Part shown: one piece after another, positions 2,360 to 61,780 of the stretch | Position numbering within the stretch: the first letter of the stretch is position 1 | Layout of the letters: each line of letters starts with the position of its first letter | Origin: Nitrospirota bacterium | Lineage (GTDB): Bacteria; Nitrospirota; Nitrospiria; Nitrospirales; Nitrospiraceae | NCBI GenBank assembly: GCA_030645475.1 | Contig: JAUSMA010000069.1 | Coordinates: 248,001 to 312,000 of the forward strand | Direction of reading: 5' to 3' | Length of the DNA stretch: 64,000 nt | The notes under the pieces: generated by a model | What the model was told of the DNA's origin: nothing | Database searches by the model: none | What the model saw: only the letters and a program-made list of their open reading frames with translations | Translations under genes and position numbers: made by a program

Positions 2360-2516
2360 CAGGATGCCGAAAAAGGCCGCCAGCCAGAAAACGCTGAGCG
2401 GTAAGTGATGAACGGTGAACGAAAAATGATGTTCACGTCAGCGTTCATCGTTCAGAGATCAAAGTTTAGTTGCTTACTCGCTGCGGCCTTGCTGGACGGA
2501 ATGTTTGAGCATTCTG
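2360..2516 (+). repeat. Stop-adjacent structured repeat, copy A (rearranged centre)
   Basis: The left end, CAGGATGCCGAAAAAG and following bases, and the right end, CTTGCTGGACGG then TTTGAGCATTCTG, match the 125-bp family seen at six other places in the window. In this 157-bp copy the centre is replaced by degenerate heptamers such as GCTGAGCG, GATGAACG and GTGAACG, followed by a partial inverted copy (CGTTCATCG). It starts 3 bp after the PCP_red stop. About 100 bp without recognisable content follow before the hairpin at 2626. Confidence 0.7.
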
Positions 2517-36795: not shown

Positions 36796-36920
36796 CAGGA
36801 TGCTGAAAAAGTCCGCCAGCATCGTTCTCGCCTCGAATGCATCCTCAACGTAGCCTGGGGCTACGCCTCCGGTGCGTTCGTCGGCTGCGGCCTTGCTGGA
36901 CGGCCATTTTGAGCATCCTG
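36796..36920 (+). repeat. Stop-adjacent structured repeat, copy B (full length)
   Basis: 125 bp. Ends CAGGATGCTGAAAA and TTTTGAGCATCCTG are inverted repeats; the centre holds CGTAGCC/GGCTACG with a 3-nt loop, preceded by TCCTCAA and followed by CCTCCGG. It begins 7 bp after the tal stop. Same family as copies at 2360, 38849, 45414, 50573, 55457 and 60289. Confidence 0.88.
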
Positions 36921-38848: not shown

Positions 38849-38905
38849 CAGGATGCTGAAAAGTCCGCTCGTCTGGAAACGCTGAACGGTGAGCGCTGAG
38901 CGATG
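38849..38905 (+). repeat. Stop-adjacent structured repeat, copy C (left half only)
   Basis: Starts CAGGATGCTGAAAAGTCCG 4 bp after the MltD stop, then passes into degenerate heptamers (CGCTGAACG, GTGAGCG, CTGAGCG, ATGAA). The right inverted end is missing, so this is a decayed or partial copy. Confidence 0.6.
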
Positions 38906-38982
38906 AAAAAGAAACAATTGCTGTGTCCTTGTTCCGCGGTCATCGTTCGCTCGCTAAGACCTGCGATCCCATCAGTAGCGTG

Positions 38983-44910: not shown

Positions 44911-45413
44911 GAGAGCTACATTGCCCTATTTGCGGGGCCTCATTCGTCCGCGTGAGCTACCAGGAGGGTATGCTCGAGCGTCTCTTGGGCCGCGTGAATG
45001 TGTTCCCGTTTCGATGTCAACTCTGCACCAATCGGTTTCGTGCATATTATGCCGGTGCACGGTACAACACCCAGGCGTTCGATCGTCGGCAGTATACGCG
45101 CCTTCCGGCCTCCATCGAAGTGCAAGTGCTCGACAGCCATCAGTCGATGACCAACCGCATTACCGACATTTCGATGGATGGTTGCACCCTACAGACGACG
45201 GGATTCTCGAAGGGGGCCTTTGTCGAATTGCTCTTGAAGCCCACGGTGGAGGACGACGCGATTTATATCGAGACGGCGATGGTCTGTTCCGTTCACCCCT
45301 CCTCGACGGGCATCCGTTTCCTGGAGGTCCCGCCGGATCATTACCGCCGTCTGGGCCAGGTGGTGCTCGGGCTCTTAGTCGGTCAGGGTCTCGACCCCAT
45401 GCTCAACATCTAG
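44907..45413 (+). CDS. Zinc-ribbon/PilZ fusion protein (168 aa)
   Basis: An N-terminal zinc ribbon with CPICG (6-10) and CQLC (about 37-40), then a PilZ domain (about 65-160) with RQYTR (RxxxR) and DISMDGC (D-x-S-x-x-G), both c-di-GMP contact motifs. Start fixed by the ATGA overlap with the MazG-like gene. The zinc ribbon may recruit a partner; the output is unknown. A structured repeat begins at the base after its TAG. Confidence 0.82.
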   Translation: MRELHCPICGASFVRVSYQEGMLERLLGRVNVFPFRCQLCTNRFRAYYAGARYNTQAFDRRQYTRLPASIEVQVLDSHQSMTNRITDISMDGCTLQTTGFSKGAFVELLLKPTVEDDAIYIETAMVCSVHPSSTGIRFLEVPPDHYRRLGQVVLGLLVGQGLDPMLNI

Positions 45414-45537
45414 CAGGCTGTTGATAAAGGCGGCCAGCAGCGTTCTCGCGGCGCGCAGAGGCTCAACGTACTGTCGAGAGTGCGCTTCGCCTCTCCGCTT
45501 GCTGCGGCCTTGCTGGACGGCCTTTCTGAACAGCCTG
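45414..45537 (+). repeat. Stop-adjacent structured repeat, copy D (full length)
   Basis: 124 bp starting directly at the base after the stop TAG. Ends CAGGCTGTTGA and GAACAGCCTG pair; the centre CGTACT/AGTGCG (one G-U pair) is the least regular of the family. Right arm GCTGCGGCCTTGCTGGACGG is typical. Confidence 0.82.
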
Positions 45538-45614
45538 CGACGACGTCTGACAGCATCTGCAACTGTTCTGGTATGCGCATTTCTGCAGTGGCTCGGTAGT
45601 TTGTCAACAAACTA

Positions 45615-46484
45615 CTAGCGAGCGCGATTCTTTCCACCCGGCACGTTCACTGGCAGATTGTCGATCAAGCGGATCGATCCGATCCGAATGGCGCCCAACA
45701 TCACCGCACGATGAGTGACCCTGGTTAGAGGCTCCAGGCTGTCGGGGTCGCAGACGGCCAGGTACTCGACGTGAATGGCCGGTGCCTGTTCGACAGTCTT
45801 CCGCATGCTCCGTTCAATCGCCTCCCCATTCTTCATTCCTCCTTCGATGGCCTGTTTGCCTGCTCGAAGTGCCCGAGAGAGCCAGGGCGCGATCATCCGT
45901 TCTTCGGCGTTGAGATAAACGTTGCGTGAACTCATGGCCAGCCCATCCGCTTCTCTGACCGTCGGGCGTACCTCGATCGCCACACCGAGATTGAGGTCTT
46001 TCACCAGTTGTCGAACCAGTGTAGCCTGCTGATAGTCTTTCTGGCCGAACAGGGCGAGATGGGGACGGACCATTCCGAAGAGTTTCGTCACTACCGTGGC
46101 GACACCGGGAAAGTGATGGGGTCTGGCCTCGCCTTCCCATCGACGCGCAATCTCCGGCAGCGTCACGACCGTTTGAAAGCCTTCGGGATACATCACCTCG
46201 GCTGTCGGTTCGAAGCAGACGTCCACCCCTTCTTCGCGGCACAGCGCCCGATCCTTGGCAATCGGGCGAGGATAGCGCGTGAGGTCTTCGCGCGGGCCGA
46301 ACTGCGTCGGGTTCACAAAAATACTCACAACGAGCGCATCGCAACGGAGCCGTGCCGCTCGGATGAGCGCACGGTGGCCGTCATGCAACGCGCCCATCGT
46401 GGGAACGAATCCGATGATGACGCCGTCGCGGCGCAATCGTTCGCTCCAGGATGTCATGGAGCGGATGGTACGAATAATCTTCAT
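45615..46484 (-). CDS. panC: Pantothenate synthetase
   Basis: A 289-residue ATP-dependent ligase of pantoate and beta-alanine. The nucleotidyl-transferase motif VPTMGALHDGHRAL, IFVNPTQFGPREDL, PHHFPGVATVVTKL, GQKDYQQ and the KMSKS-like SSRNVYL are conserved. Start fixed by the ATGA overlap with folK, which coexpresses a pantothenate and a folate gene. Confidence 0.95.
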   Translation of the reverse strand: MKIIRTIRSMTSWSERLRRDGVIIGFVPTMGALHDGHRALIRAARLRCDALVVSIFVNPTQFGPREDLTRYPRPIAKDRALCREEGVDVCFEPTAEVMYPEGFQTVVTLPEIARRWEGEARPHHFPGVATVVTKLFGMVRPHLALFGQKDYQQATLVRQLVKDLNLGVAIEVRPTVREADGLAMSSRNVYLNAEERMIAPWLSRALRAGKQAIEGGMKNGEAIERSMRKTVEQAPAIHVEYLAVCDPDSLEPLTRVTHRAVMLGAIRIGSIRLIDNLPVNVPGGKNRAR

Positions 46485-47081: not shown

Positions 47082-47177
47082 GACGAGGTGCCGGGGCGAG
47101 AGGCGACTGCGCGCGTCGAACGAGCATATTCTGATCGTGCGCGTTCCGCGAGCAAGCCCTCGCCTCGGCTTCACGTC
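47082..47177. repeat. GC-rich hairpin element, copy 1
   Basis: A 47-bp core (47108-47154; on the minus strand it starts TGCTCGCGGAACGCGC and ends CTCGTTCGACGCGCGCA) differs at only one base from the core at 61711-61757. Around it, outer arms GACG..GCCG..GGCGAG pair imperfectly with their partners to 47177. It lies between the dapL stop and the folK start. Confidence 0.75.
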
Positions 47178-47183
47178 CCCAGC

Positions 47184-48359
47184 CTAGAATCCTACTTTTC
47201 TAATCCGCTCCACCGCTTCTGCCAGCCGTTCTTTCGTCGTGCAAACGGTCATCCTGATATAACCTTCGCCCGGCGCTCCGAAGCCGTTGCCCGGTGTCGT
47301 CACGATCCCGGCCTTCTCCAGTAAATGAGCCGTAAAGGAGGCGGAGGTGTATCCCTTCGGCACCGTGACCCAGATATAAAATGCGGCCGGTGGTGGATCG
47401 ACTTCGAGGCCCAGGCTCTTCAGCCCAGGCACCAAGGTATCGCGCCGCTCCTGATAGATCTTCCGTAGGCCGTCCGTGACGGAATCATCCAATCCCAGCG
47501 CCGTGATTCCTGCGGCCTGCACCGCTTCGAACACGCCGGAGTCCAGCTGGCTCTTGACCTTGCCGAGGCCTGCCAAGACGTCTTTGTTGCCGACGACGAA
47601 GCCGATGCGCCAGCCCGTCATATTGTAGGTCTTCGAGAGCGAGTGGAACTCCACGCCGACGTCCTTGGCTCCGTCGATTTCCATGAAGCTGACAGGAGGT
47701 TTGCCGTCGTAATAAATTTCCGAGTAGGCCGCATCGTGGCAGACGATGACCTGGTTCTCCTGCGCAAACTCCACCACGCGCTTGAAGTAGTCCTTGGTCA
47801 TGATGACCGACGTGGGATTATTCGGCGAATTCAGCCACATCAGCTTGGCCCTTTTCGCCACATCCTTGGGGATCGCGTTCAAGTCAGGTAAAAAACCGTT
47901 GGCCTTCGTCAGCGGCATGAGGTGCGAGATGCCGCCGCAGAAGCCGGTACCGACCGGATAGACCGGATAGCCGGGGCTCGGGACCAGGACGATATCGCCC
48001 GGATCGACAAACGCCAAGTGAATGTGCCCGATTCCTTCCTTCGAGCCGATCAGGGTCAGCACTTCGTCGGCAGGGTTCAGCGTCACGTTGAACCGGCGCT
48101 TATACCAGTCGGCCACGGCTGTCCGGAACGACAGCATTCCTTCGTAGGAGGGATATTGATGGTGCTTGGGGTTTTTGGCAGCCAGGGCGAGGCTTTCGAT
48201 AATCGGAGTCGGTGTCGGCAAGTCCGGATCGCCGATGCCGAGGTTGATGATATCGACACCCTTAGCAATCGCCGCCTGCTTCATCTTGTCGATGGCGGCA
48301 AACAGATAGGGAGGCAGTGTTTTAATTCTGGTTGCGACTTCAATTGGAAAACCGGCCAT
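47184..48359 (-). CDS. dapL: LL-diaminopimelate aminotransferase
   Basis: A 391-residue class I/II PLP aminotransferase that converts tetrahydrodipicolinate directly to LL-diaminopimelate. INLGIGDPDLPTP, the Asn-containing LNSPNNPTS, CHDAAYSEIYYDG and the PLP Lys in HSLSKTYNMTGWRIGF match DapL-type enzymes. With dapA, dapB and lysA in this window it outlines the aminotransferase variant of lysine synthesis, which needs no dapC/D/E, only an epimerase (dapF, not seen here). Confidence 0.9.
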   Translation of the reverse strand: MAGFPIEVATRIKTLPPYLFAAIDKMKQAAIAKGVDIINLGIGDPDLPTPTPIIESLALAAKNPKHHQYPSYEGMLSFRTAVADWYKRRFNVTLNPADEVLTLIGSKEGIGHIHLAFVDPGDIVLVPSPGYPVYPVGTGFCGGISHLMPLTKANGFLPDLNAIPKDVAKRAKLMWLNSPNNPTSVIMTKDYFKRVVEFAQENQVIVCHDAAYSEIYYDGKPPVSFMEIDGAKDVGVEFHSLSKTYNMTGWRIGFVVGNKDVLAGLGKVKSQLDSGVFEAVQAAGITALGLDDSVTDGLRKIYQERRDTLVPGLKSLGLEVDPPPAAFYIWVTVPKGYTSASFTAHLLEKAGIVTTPGNGFGAPGEGYIRMTVCTTKERLAEAVERIRKVGF

Positions 48360-50572: not shown

Positions 50573-50697
50573 CAGGCTGCTGAAAATGCCCGCTAGCTTC
50601 GTTCTCGGTTCGCAACCATCCTCAACGTACCCCAAGGGTACGCCTCCGGTGTTTGCTCTCCTTGCGGCCTCGCTATCGGAGCATTTTGAGCAGCCTG
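50573..50697 (+). repeat. Stop-adjacent structured repeat, copy E (full length)
   Basis: 125 bp, starting 5 bp after the stop. Ends CAGGCTGCTGAAAA and TTTTGAGCAGCCTG are perfect inverted repeats; the centre CGTACCC/GGGTACG has a 3-nt loop. Relative to copy B both stems changed on both strands and still pair. Confidence 0.88.
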
Positions 50698-55456: not shown

Positions 55457-55580
55457 CAGGATGCTCAAAAATTTCGTCCAGCAAGGCCGCAGTGAGTGAA
55501 GAGCCGAGGCGTACCTCCTGAGGTACGTTGAGGGTCTGAACGATGCGAGAACGCCGCTGGCGGACTTTTTCAGCATCCTG
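55457..55580 (-). repeat. Stop-adjacent structured repeat, copy F (full length)
   Basis: 124 bp. On the minus strand it follows the AttH-like stop with no gap. Ends CAGGATGCTGAAAA and TTTTGAGCATCCTG pair; centre CGTACCT/AGGTACG with a 4-nt loop. Right-hand GCGGCCTTGCTGGACG is typical of the family. Confidence 0.88.
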
Positions 55581-60288: not shown

Positions 60289-60413
60289 AAGGCTGCTCAA
60301 AAAGGCCGTCCAGCAAGGCTGCAGCCGATGAAAGCACCGGAGGCGTAGCCTCTGGCTACGTTGAGGATGCTTTCGAGGGGAGAACGCCGCTGGCGGACTT
60401 TTTCAGCAGCCTT
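60289..60413 (-). repeat. Stop-adjacent structured repeat, copy G (full length)
   Basis: 125 bp. On the minus strand it follows the TAG of the RNase Z-like gene with no gap. Ends AAGGCTGCTGAAAAA and TTTTTGAGCAGCCTT are perfect inverted repeats; centre CGTAGCC/GGCTACG. The terminal pair is A-T here where other copies have C-G. The preceding 70 bp after the SirB1 stop hold GTGAAACG-type short repeats. Confidence 0.88.
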
Positions 60414-61644: not shown

Positions 61645-61690
61645 GTTCTGAGGATAGTCCGCACTAGAACGGAGATTCAAGGGGGGAGGC

Positions 61691-61780
61691 GGGCAGCCTG
61701 GTCGTCCTCCTGCTCGCGGAACGCGCACGATCAGAATGTGCTCGTTCGACGCGCGCAATCGAGGATCGACCAGGCCGCCC
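61691..61780. repeat. GC-rich hairpin element, copy 2
   Basis: Core 61711-61757 is 46 of 47 identical to copy 1 (inverse strand). Outer arms read GGGCAGCCTGGTCG-TCCTC on the left and pair with GAGGATCGACCAGGCCGCCC on the right, a sequence unrelated to the outer arms of copies 1 and 3. It lies upstream of the MarR gene in a 500-bp gene-free spacer. Confidence 0.75.

Follow-up and report, generated by a model that had tools for sequence, protein, structure and literature searches.

Gene ends in the family Nitrospiraceae carry a repeat that, judged by its structure, is a non-autonomous MITE: a short unit with terminal inverted repeats, no transposase gene and a target-site duplication. This MITE inserts at TA, is probably retained according to its orientation and probably serves as a 3'-end hairpin. 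The window (the whole stretch of DNA that was analysed, 64,000 nucleotides) holds seven copies, A to G (Table 1). As the initial annotation had observed, all seven are sense to the upstream gene with both strands represented (A to E on the plus strand, F and G on the minus strand). Its stop-to-repeat gaps of 3, 7, 4, 0, 5, 0 and 0 bp for A to G were correct when we re-read them from the sequence and the gene calls. Genes were called with a simple codon-usage gene finder, and Pfam domains confirm the gene preceding each copy except E, whose 67-aa ORF has none. Copy C was missed by the profile and is recognisable by eye as CAGGATGCTGAAAAGTCCG 4 bp past its TAA.

Table 1. Hairpin repeats of the window and the stop codons they adjoin.
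Feature	Position	Strand	Relation to stop codon, remarks
Copy A	2360..2516	+	3 bp past TAG 2354-2356; different hairpin (TGAACGGTGAACG type) in place of the usual hairpin interior
Copy B	36796..36920	+	7 bp past TAA 36786-36788 of a transaldolase-family gene
Copy C	38849..38965	+	Degenerate; 4 bp past TAA 38842-38844 of an SLT-domain gene; hairpin interior belongs to a different type; right boundary approximate (by-eye reading)
Copy D, stop TAG of PilZ-domain gene	45411..45413	+	Target TA 45411-45412 plus the element's G 45413
Copy D, palindrome (124 nt)	45414..45537	+	Gap 0 to stop
Copy D, tail to the element's last base	45538..45615	+	Right end diverged
Copy D, stop TAG of panC (Pantoate_ligase)	45615..45617	-	Right-hand TA copy plus the element's terminal base
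Copy E	50573..50697	+	5 bp past TAG; left end touched by CTAG
Copy F	55457..55580	-	Directly past TAG 55583-55581 of a CrtC/lipocalin-domain gene; tail to ~55383
Copy G	60289..60413	-	Directly past TAG 60416-60414 of a metallo-beta-lactamase-fold gene
Second hairpin repeat (core GCTCGCGGAACGCGCACGATCAGAATATGCTCGTTCGACGCGCGC)	47090..47191	-	Lies after an aminotransferase gene whose TAG stop is within CTAG
Second hairpin repeat, another copy	61674..61775		

Anatomy of the element and its insertion at TA

Comparison of copies with empty sites gave full copies a length of about 200 bp, composed of a 124-nt palindrome and a tail of about 80 nt. The layout is TA-GCAGGATGCTGAAAAAGTCCGCCAGC, palindrome, GCTGGACGGCCTTTTTGAGCATCCTG and the ~80-nt tail ending AGTTTTTCCGCAGCCTGC-TA. 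Inverted ends, GCAGGMTGCTGAAAAA and TTTTTCCGCAGCCTGC, bound full copies and are themselves flanked by the duplicated TA, with a median TA-to-TA distance of ~200 bp. Both flanking TAs were intact in 75 of 114 full-length copies, and the targets rebuilt in these 75 were CTAG (37), CTAA (14), TTAG (10) and others (14); the order of target preference is CTAG > CTAA > TTAG. As RNA, copy D folds at -76.4 kcal/mol (z -5.5), and folds of five window copies ranged from -55 to -76 kcal/mol (z -3.9 to -7.7).

What does insertion do to a stop codon? An empty site in a related genome (G001, GCACCTAAAGAGGAG) carries a single TA where the genome of the window reads CCTAA-element-CTAAAGAGGAG; thus, the TA is duplicated on insertion. 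Both ends of the element start with G. When it enters the TA of a TAG or TAA stop, that TA and the G together restore TAG, and the protein stays the same. The TAG that had been seen touching the repeat end is therefore real, being composed of the target TA and the element's own first base. The idea that the element brings its own stop is right for the G, which comes from the element, but not for the TA, which is the gene's own, element-free orthologues ending at the same place. Among the 90 distance-0 copies, 39 had an element-free orthologue in our data, and for 35 of these 39 testable copies the orthologue stop, mostly TAG or TAA, lay at the same position (within one residue). Thus, the stop is native. 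Some orthologue TAA stops are TAG in the element-bearing gene, as a TAA becomes TAG when struck.

These orthologues also bear on a truncation model, in which insertions within coding sequence would end genes early at the element's TAG, making distance 0 trivial. Two of the three frames do meet a stop at the left end (TAG in one, TGA within GCTGA in the other), and one copy (L043:6476) ends its gene 11 bp inside the element. However, truncation as the cause of distance 0 is refuted for most copies by the orthologue stop positions, and we consider it very improbable.

At the site of copy D, the sister species G012 lacks the element and has one CTAG, which holds the TAG stop of the PilZ gene. Read by hand, the G012 panC frame passes through this CTAG to a TGA 6 nt on; thus, in the genome of the window panC seems to owe a new stop to the insertion. 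We rejected the possibility that in G012 a single CTAG provides the stops of both the PilZ gene and panC, because the frames show panC reading through. Likewise, a restriction of G or A after the right TA to stop-codon insertions failed (28:2 versus 49:4). The target is YTAR everywhere, so the base after the right TA does not discriminate stop-codon insertions.

In a collection of named genomes, exact left-arm matches were all from Nitrospira, Nitrospiraceae or Nitrospirota among the matches listed. A sample of the phylum gave matches in 49 of 148 genomes, in several genera of the same family and more weakly in the order and beyond. The genome of the window contains 131 left-end matches at ≤2 mismatches versus 1 for a reversed control pattern. 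Despite its well over 100 element copies, it has no match to three common transposase families, PF01609, PF13358 and PF01797 (Y1_Tnp, RAYT), the last of which was detected in control genomes. The element's ends are absent from the IS630 (PF13358), PF13586 and Y1_Tnp loci of relatives, and no cognate autonomous transposon with the same ends was found among these loci. We therefore rejected RAYT, IS630 and IS4/IS5-type transposases as movers, since they are missing from the genome of the window or their loci in relatives have no matching ends. Many accepted MITEs have no known autonomous partner.

Position and orientation of copies across Nitrospira genomes

Random intergenic insertion, according to the initial annotation, would not place the repeat in this way. 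We sampled 1.664 Mb of the genome of the window (44%), 0.64 Mb of the sister species and 117 contig pieces (other Nitrospira genomes), which together hold 245 copies. A same-sense stop lies within -15 to +20 bp of 147 copies (chance ~12%), and 90 copies sit exactly at one (chance 4–10%). Starts within this interval account for 49/76 copies in the genome of the window and 27/33 in the sister species; at a distance of exactly 0 we counted 27/76 and 11/33, respectively, and 52/136 in the other Nitrospira pieces, with 17, 14 and 11 copies lying 1–20 bp past the sense stop. As background we took, in both orientations, every TA of the sampled parts of the first two genomes that lies between genes or in a stop codon (permissible sites). 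Sense stops make up 4.4–4.8% of these TA sites and 8.5–9.5% of the CTAG sites, and sites 1–20 bp past a sense stop make up 2.3–2.9%. Relative to the CTAG rate, the excess at distance 0 gives binomial p values of ~7e-10 (genome of the window) and ~6e-5 (sister species), which are optimistic in treating copies as independent. Stop proximity is thus far beyond chance in both genomes, as had been claimed.

Orientation is biased as well. Tandem-gene contexts hold 98 sense versus 42 antisense copies, and convergent gaps hold 68 versus 22 in divergent gaps, although more DNA lies in divergent gaps. Among full-length copies, stop-codon insertions are 41 sense and 10 antisense. Hence, "always in the same orientation" describes the seven window copies but is too strong for the wider sample, with its antisense tandem copies and its copies between divergent genes. 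The larger tally of distance and strand that had been called for upholds the bias and the tight distance, but neither is absolute, given the share of copies near a same-sense stop.

Some copies have no same-sense upstream stop (L067:9881, L043:9415, L036:7935 and L077:14267). In such copies the hairpin often starts 15–17 nt ahead of a divergent gene's predicted start codon, just outside the likely ribosome-binding site.

Does the bias arise at insertion or afterwards? We used the profile score as a proxy for copy age in the unselected set from the genome of the window and the sister species. Going from the highest-scoring (youngest) third of copies to the lowest-scoring (oldest), favoured contexts, meaning sense tandem or convergent ones, stood against unfavoured contexts at 22:14, 27:9 and 34:3 (Fisher p 0.002). 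No age trend was found in the genus loci, which were fetched by exact consensus match and are thus poor in old copies. Even in the youngest third, many copies (22/36) are next to a sense stop, which leaves room for targeted insertion, whereby the transposase itself would favour gene ends and one orientation by following transcription, translation termination or replication direction. The excess of sense over antisense insertions at the stop codon would fit such a transposase, as would an observed share beyond what CTAG frequency alone gives. Against this, orientation bias rises with age in the unselected set, and the element is also found at stops in the antisense direction and between genes; on balance, targeted insertion appears unlikely. 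Target choice alone leaves orientation unexplained, and the age classes point to selective retention of what may be a 3'-end hairpin. In our reading, position comes partly from TA targeting combined with the harmless rebuilding of the stop, and orientation mostly from later loss of unfavoured copies.

Hairpin conservation and a putative 3'-end function

Is the hairpin itself maintained? Stem columns are paired in 95% of cases versus 82% in shuffles, and double-change cells number 419 versus a shuffle mean of 113, a figure inflated by the kinship of copies. Terminal bases vary in pairs from copy to copy. The A/T tracts on either side of the GC stem, kept in ~90% of 201 copies, rank with the most conserved parts; TTTT follows the GC stem in 182/201, the T-tract lying inside a longer stem. 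A terminator scan with a loop limit of 8 did not list the element sites. In other species, elements occur at the same offset past orthologous genes of 77–90% DNA identity, and at such orthologous sites the hairpin is at times better conserved than the gene, the downstream DNA having decayed.

Stem covariation and orthologous retention fit selection for a 3'-end hairpin, and gene conversion or hairpin-templated repair could mimic part of this pattern. The kept hairpin is probably a 3'-end element, either a terminator or an mRNA stabiliser; from its features we infer that termination would be the most likely function, followed by mRNA 3' protection. The earlier interpretation is partly upheld: position and orientation are non-random and the element is part of the stop, and a 3'-end function, which may be termination, mRNA protection or ribosome release, draws indirect support from the age trend in orientation, the stem covariation and the retention at orthologous sites.

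At L042:8843, the right arm is nearly identical to that of the G012 orthologue, and the left arm of the copy in the genome of the window differs and is a better match to the right arm. This left arm looks as if corrected by hairpin-templated repair.

In several copies the hairpin interior of the element has been replaced by other hairpin families, with the left ~25 nt and the tail kept, and two of these other families are likewise close to stops. We found only swapped interiors or neighbouring copies, and thus rejected the view that these are solo ends flanking a longer autonomous element. Tentatively, Nitrospiraceae might possess interchangeable mobile 3'-end modules, in which unrelated hairpin families are swapped within a stop-rebuilding MITE frame, although we rate this possibility as rather low. 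If true, transcript ends would be built and replaced genome-wide by transposition and hairpin swapping.

Two further hairpin repeats were observed. The second repeat of Table 1, unrelated to the first, has 44 copies in the sampled sets, many of them 11–29 nt from a stop. A third family, GGTCTGTTTGG...AACCAGACAGACC, has 50 copies that are also stop-proximal (X_L217, N_L165, N_L128 and others) and is found inside frames with the left end and tail of the ~200-bp MITE.

Could the element be useless and simply tolerated? Pure tolerance supposes that it survives at 3' ends because it is silent at the stop and its hairpin is least harmful there, copies in antisense or promoter-side places being removed. 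It accounts for the silent stop rebuild and for the age-related loss of divergent and antisense copies, but is a poor fit to retention at orthologous stops across species amid downstream decay, and to the presence of unrelated hairpin families at the same kind of place. We therefore hold tolerance alone to be a doubtful explanation.

We favour a MITE that is retained for its hairpin, by a mechanism in three steps. First, as site comparison shows, the element inserts at TA (CTAG > CTAA > TTAG), duplicates the TA and rebuilds TAG. Second, as the statistics suggest, sense copies at a stop and copies between convergent genes are kept, and antisense and promoter-side copies are lost over time. Third, the retained copies would act as 3'-end hairpins; the layout of A-tract, GC-rich stem and T-tract could suit an intrinsic terminator that works in both directions or a barrier against 3' exonucleases. 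This provides a concrete, testable reason for repeats hugging stop codons: a TA-target element starting with G enters TAA or TAG silently and adds a hairpin. Many Nitrospira genes thus carry a ready-made hairpin directly past their end, possibly a portable transcript terminator. Should these hairpins act as terminators, the gene ends of a nitrifier family of global importance would be wired by mobile DNA.

Comparison with known repeats

ERIC (RU-1) and YPAL (RU-2) are enterobacterial MITEs of 127–168 bp with a long imperfect palindrome, dispersed intergenic copies, TA ends and TA duplication (PMC2759123), and ERIC copies at 3' ends bring an RNase E site by which they alter transcript levels (PMC10969869). 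The Nitrospira element is similar in architecture and TA duplication, a likeness by architecture only, and differs in host group, size and ends. In the literature covered, which lies outside the main ERIC papers, no rule of entering and rebuilding stops has been demonstrated for ERIC or YPAL.

SPRITE of Streptococcus pneumoniae is a hairpin repeat enriched at 3' ends and a proposed co-opted terminator (PMC3049150). Unlike the Nitrospira element, it is short and AT-rich with a U-rich tract after it, and target duplication is not established for it. Correia elements of Neisseria have a TA target, their ends differ from those described here, and we know of no stop-codon insertion rule for them. 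They are hairpin MITEs, and RNase III cleaves their transcripts (PMC10969869).

It is most improbable that the element is an integron attC site marking gene cassettes or a REP moved by RAYT. While attC sites too follow stops in one orientation, the copies here are dispersed on both strands, with no cassette arrays and no GTTRRRY core seen by eye. GTAG-tagged REPs lie <20 bp from gene ends, mostly in uni- or convergent contexts, and their termini often supply the TAG stop (PMC3733652); similarly, the Nitrospira element is stop-proximal and lends part of the TAG. However, REPs are 20–40 bp long, carry an unpaired GTAG or CGTC tag and have single-strand RAYT mobility, whereas our element is a ~200-bp unit with a 124-nt palindrome, inverted ends and TA duplication, in a genome without RAYT (no Y1_Tnp protein). 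Judged by the tested features, the element falls outside RAYT/REP systems. In E. coli, REPs no more than 15 nt past a stop codon are reported (in work cited in PMC12306157) to lower translation of the upstream gene; in that paper only ~11% of E. coli REPs lie so close to a stop, versus ~60% of Nitrospira element copies.

The literature searched, which lies outside the subscription ERIC papers, held no published description of the Nitrospira element or of a stop-rebuilding insertion rule, and we rate the element as new within the known MITE kind, not as a kind of its own. Its target rule, its empty sites and its age classes can all be observed, which allows insertion preference to be told apart from later selection, a distinction that is hard to draw for REP and ERIC repeats.
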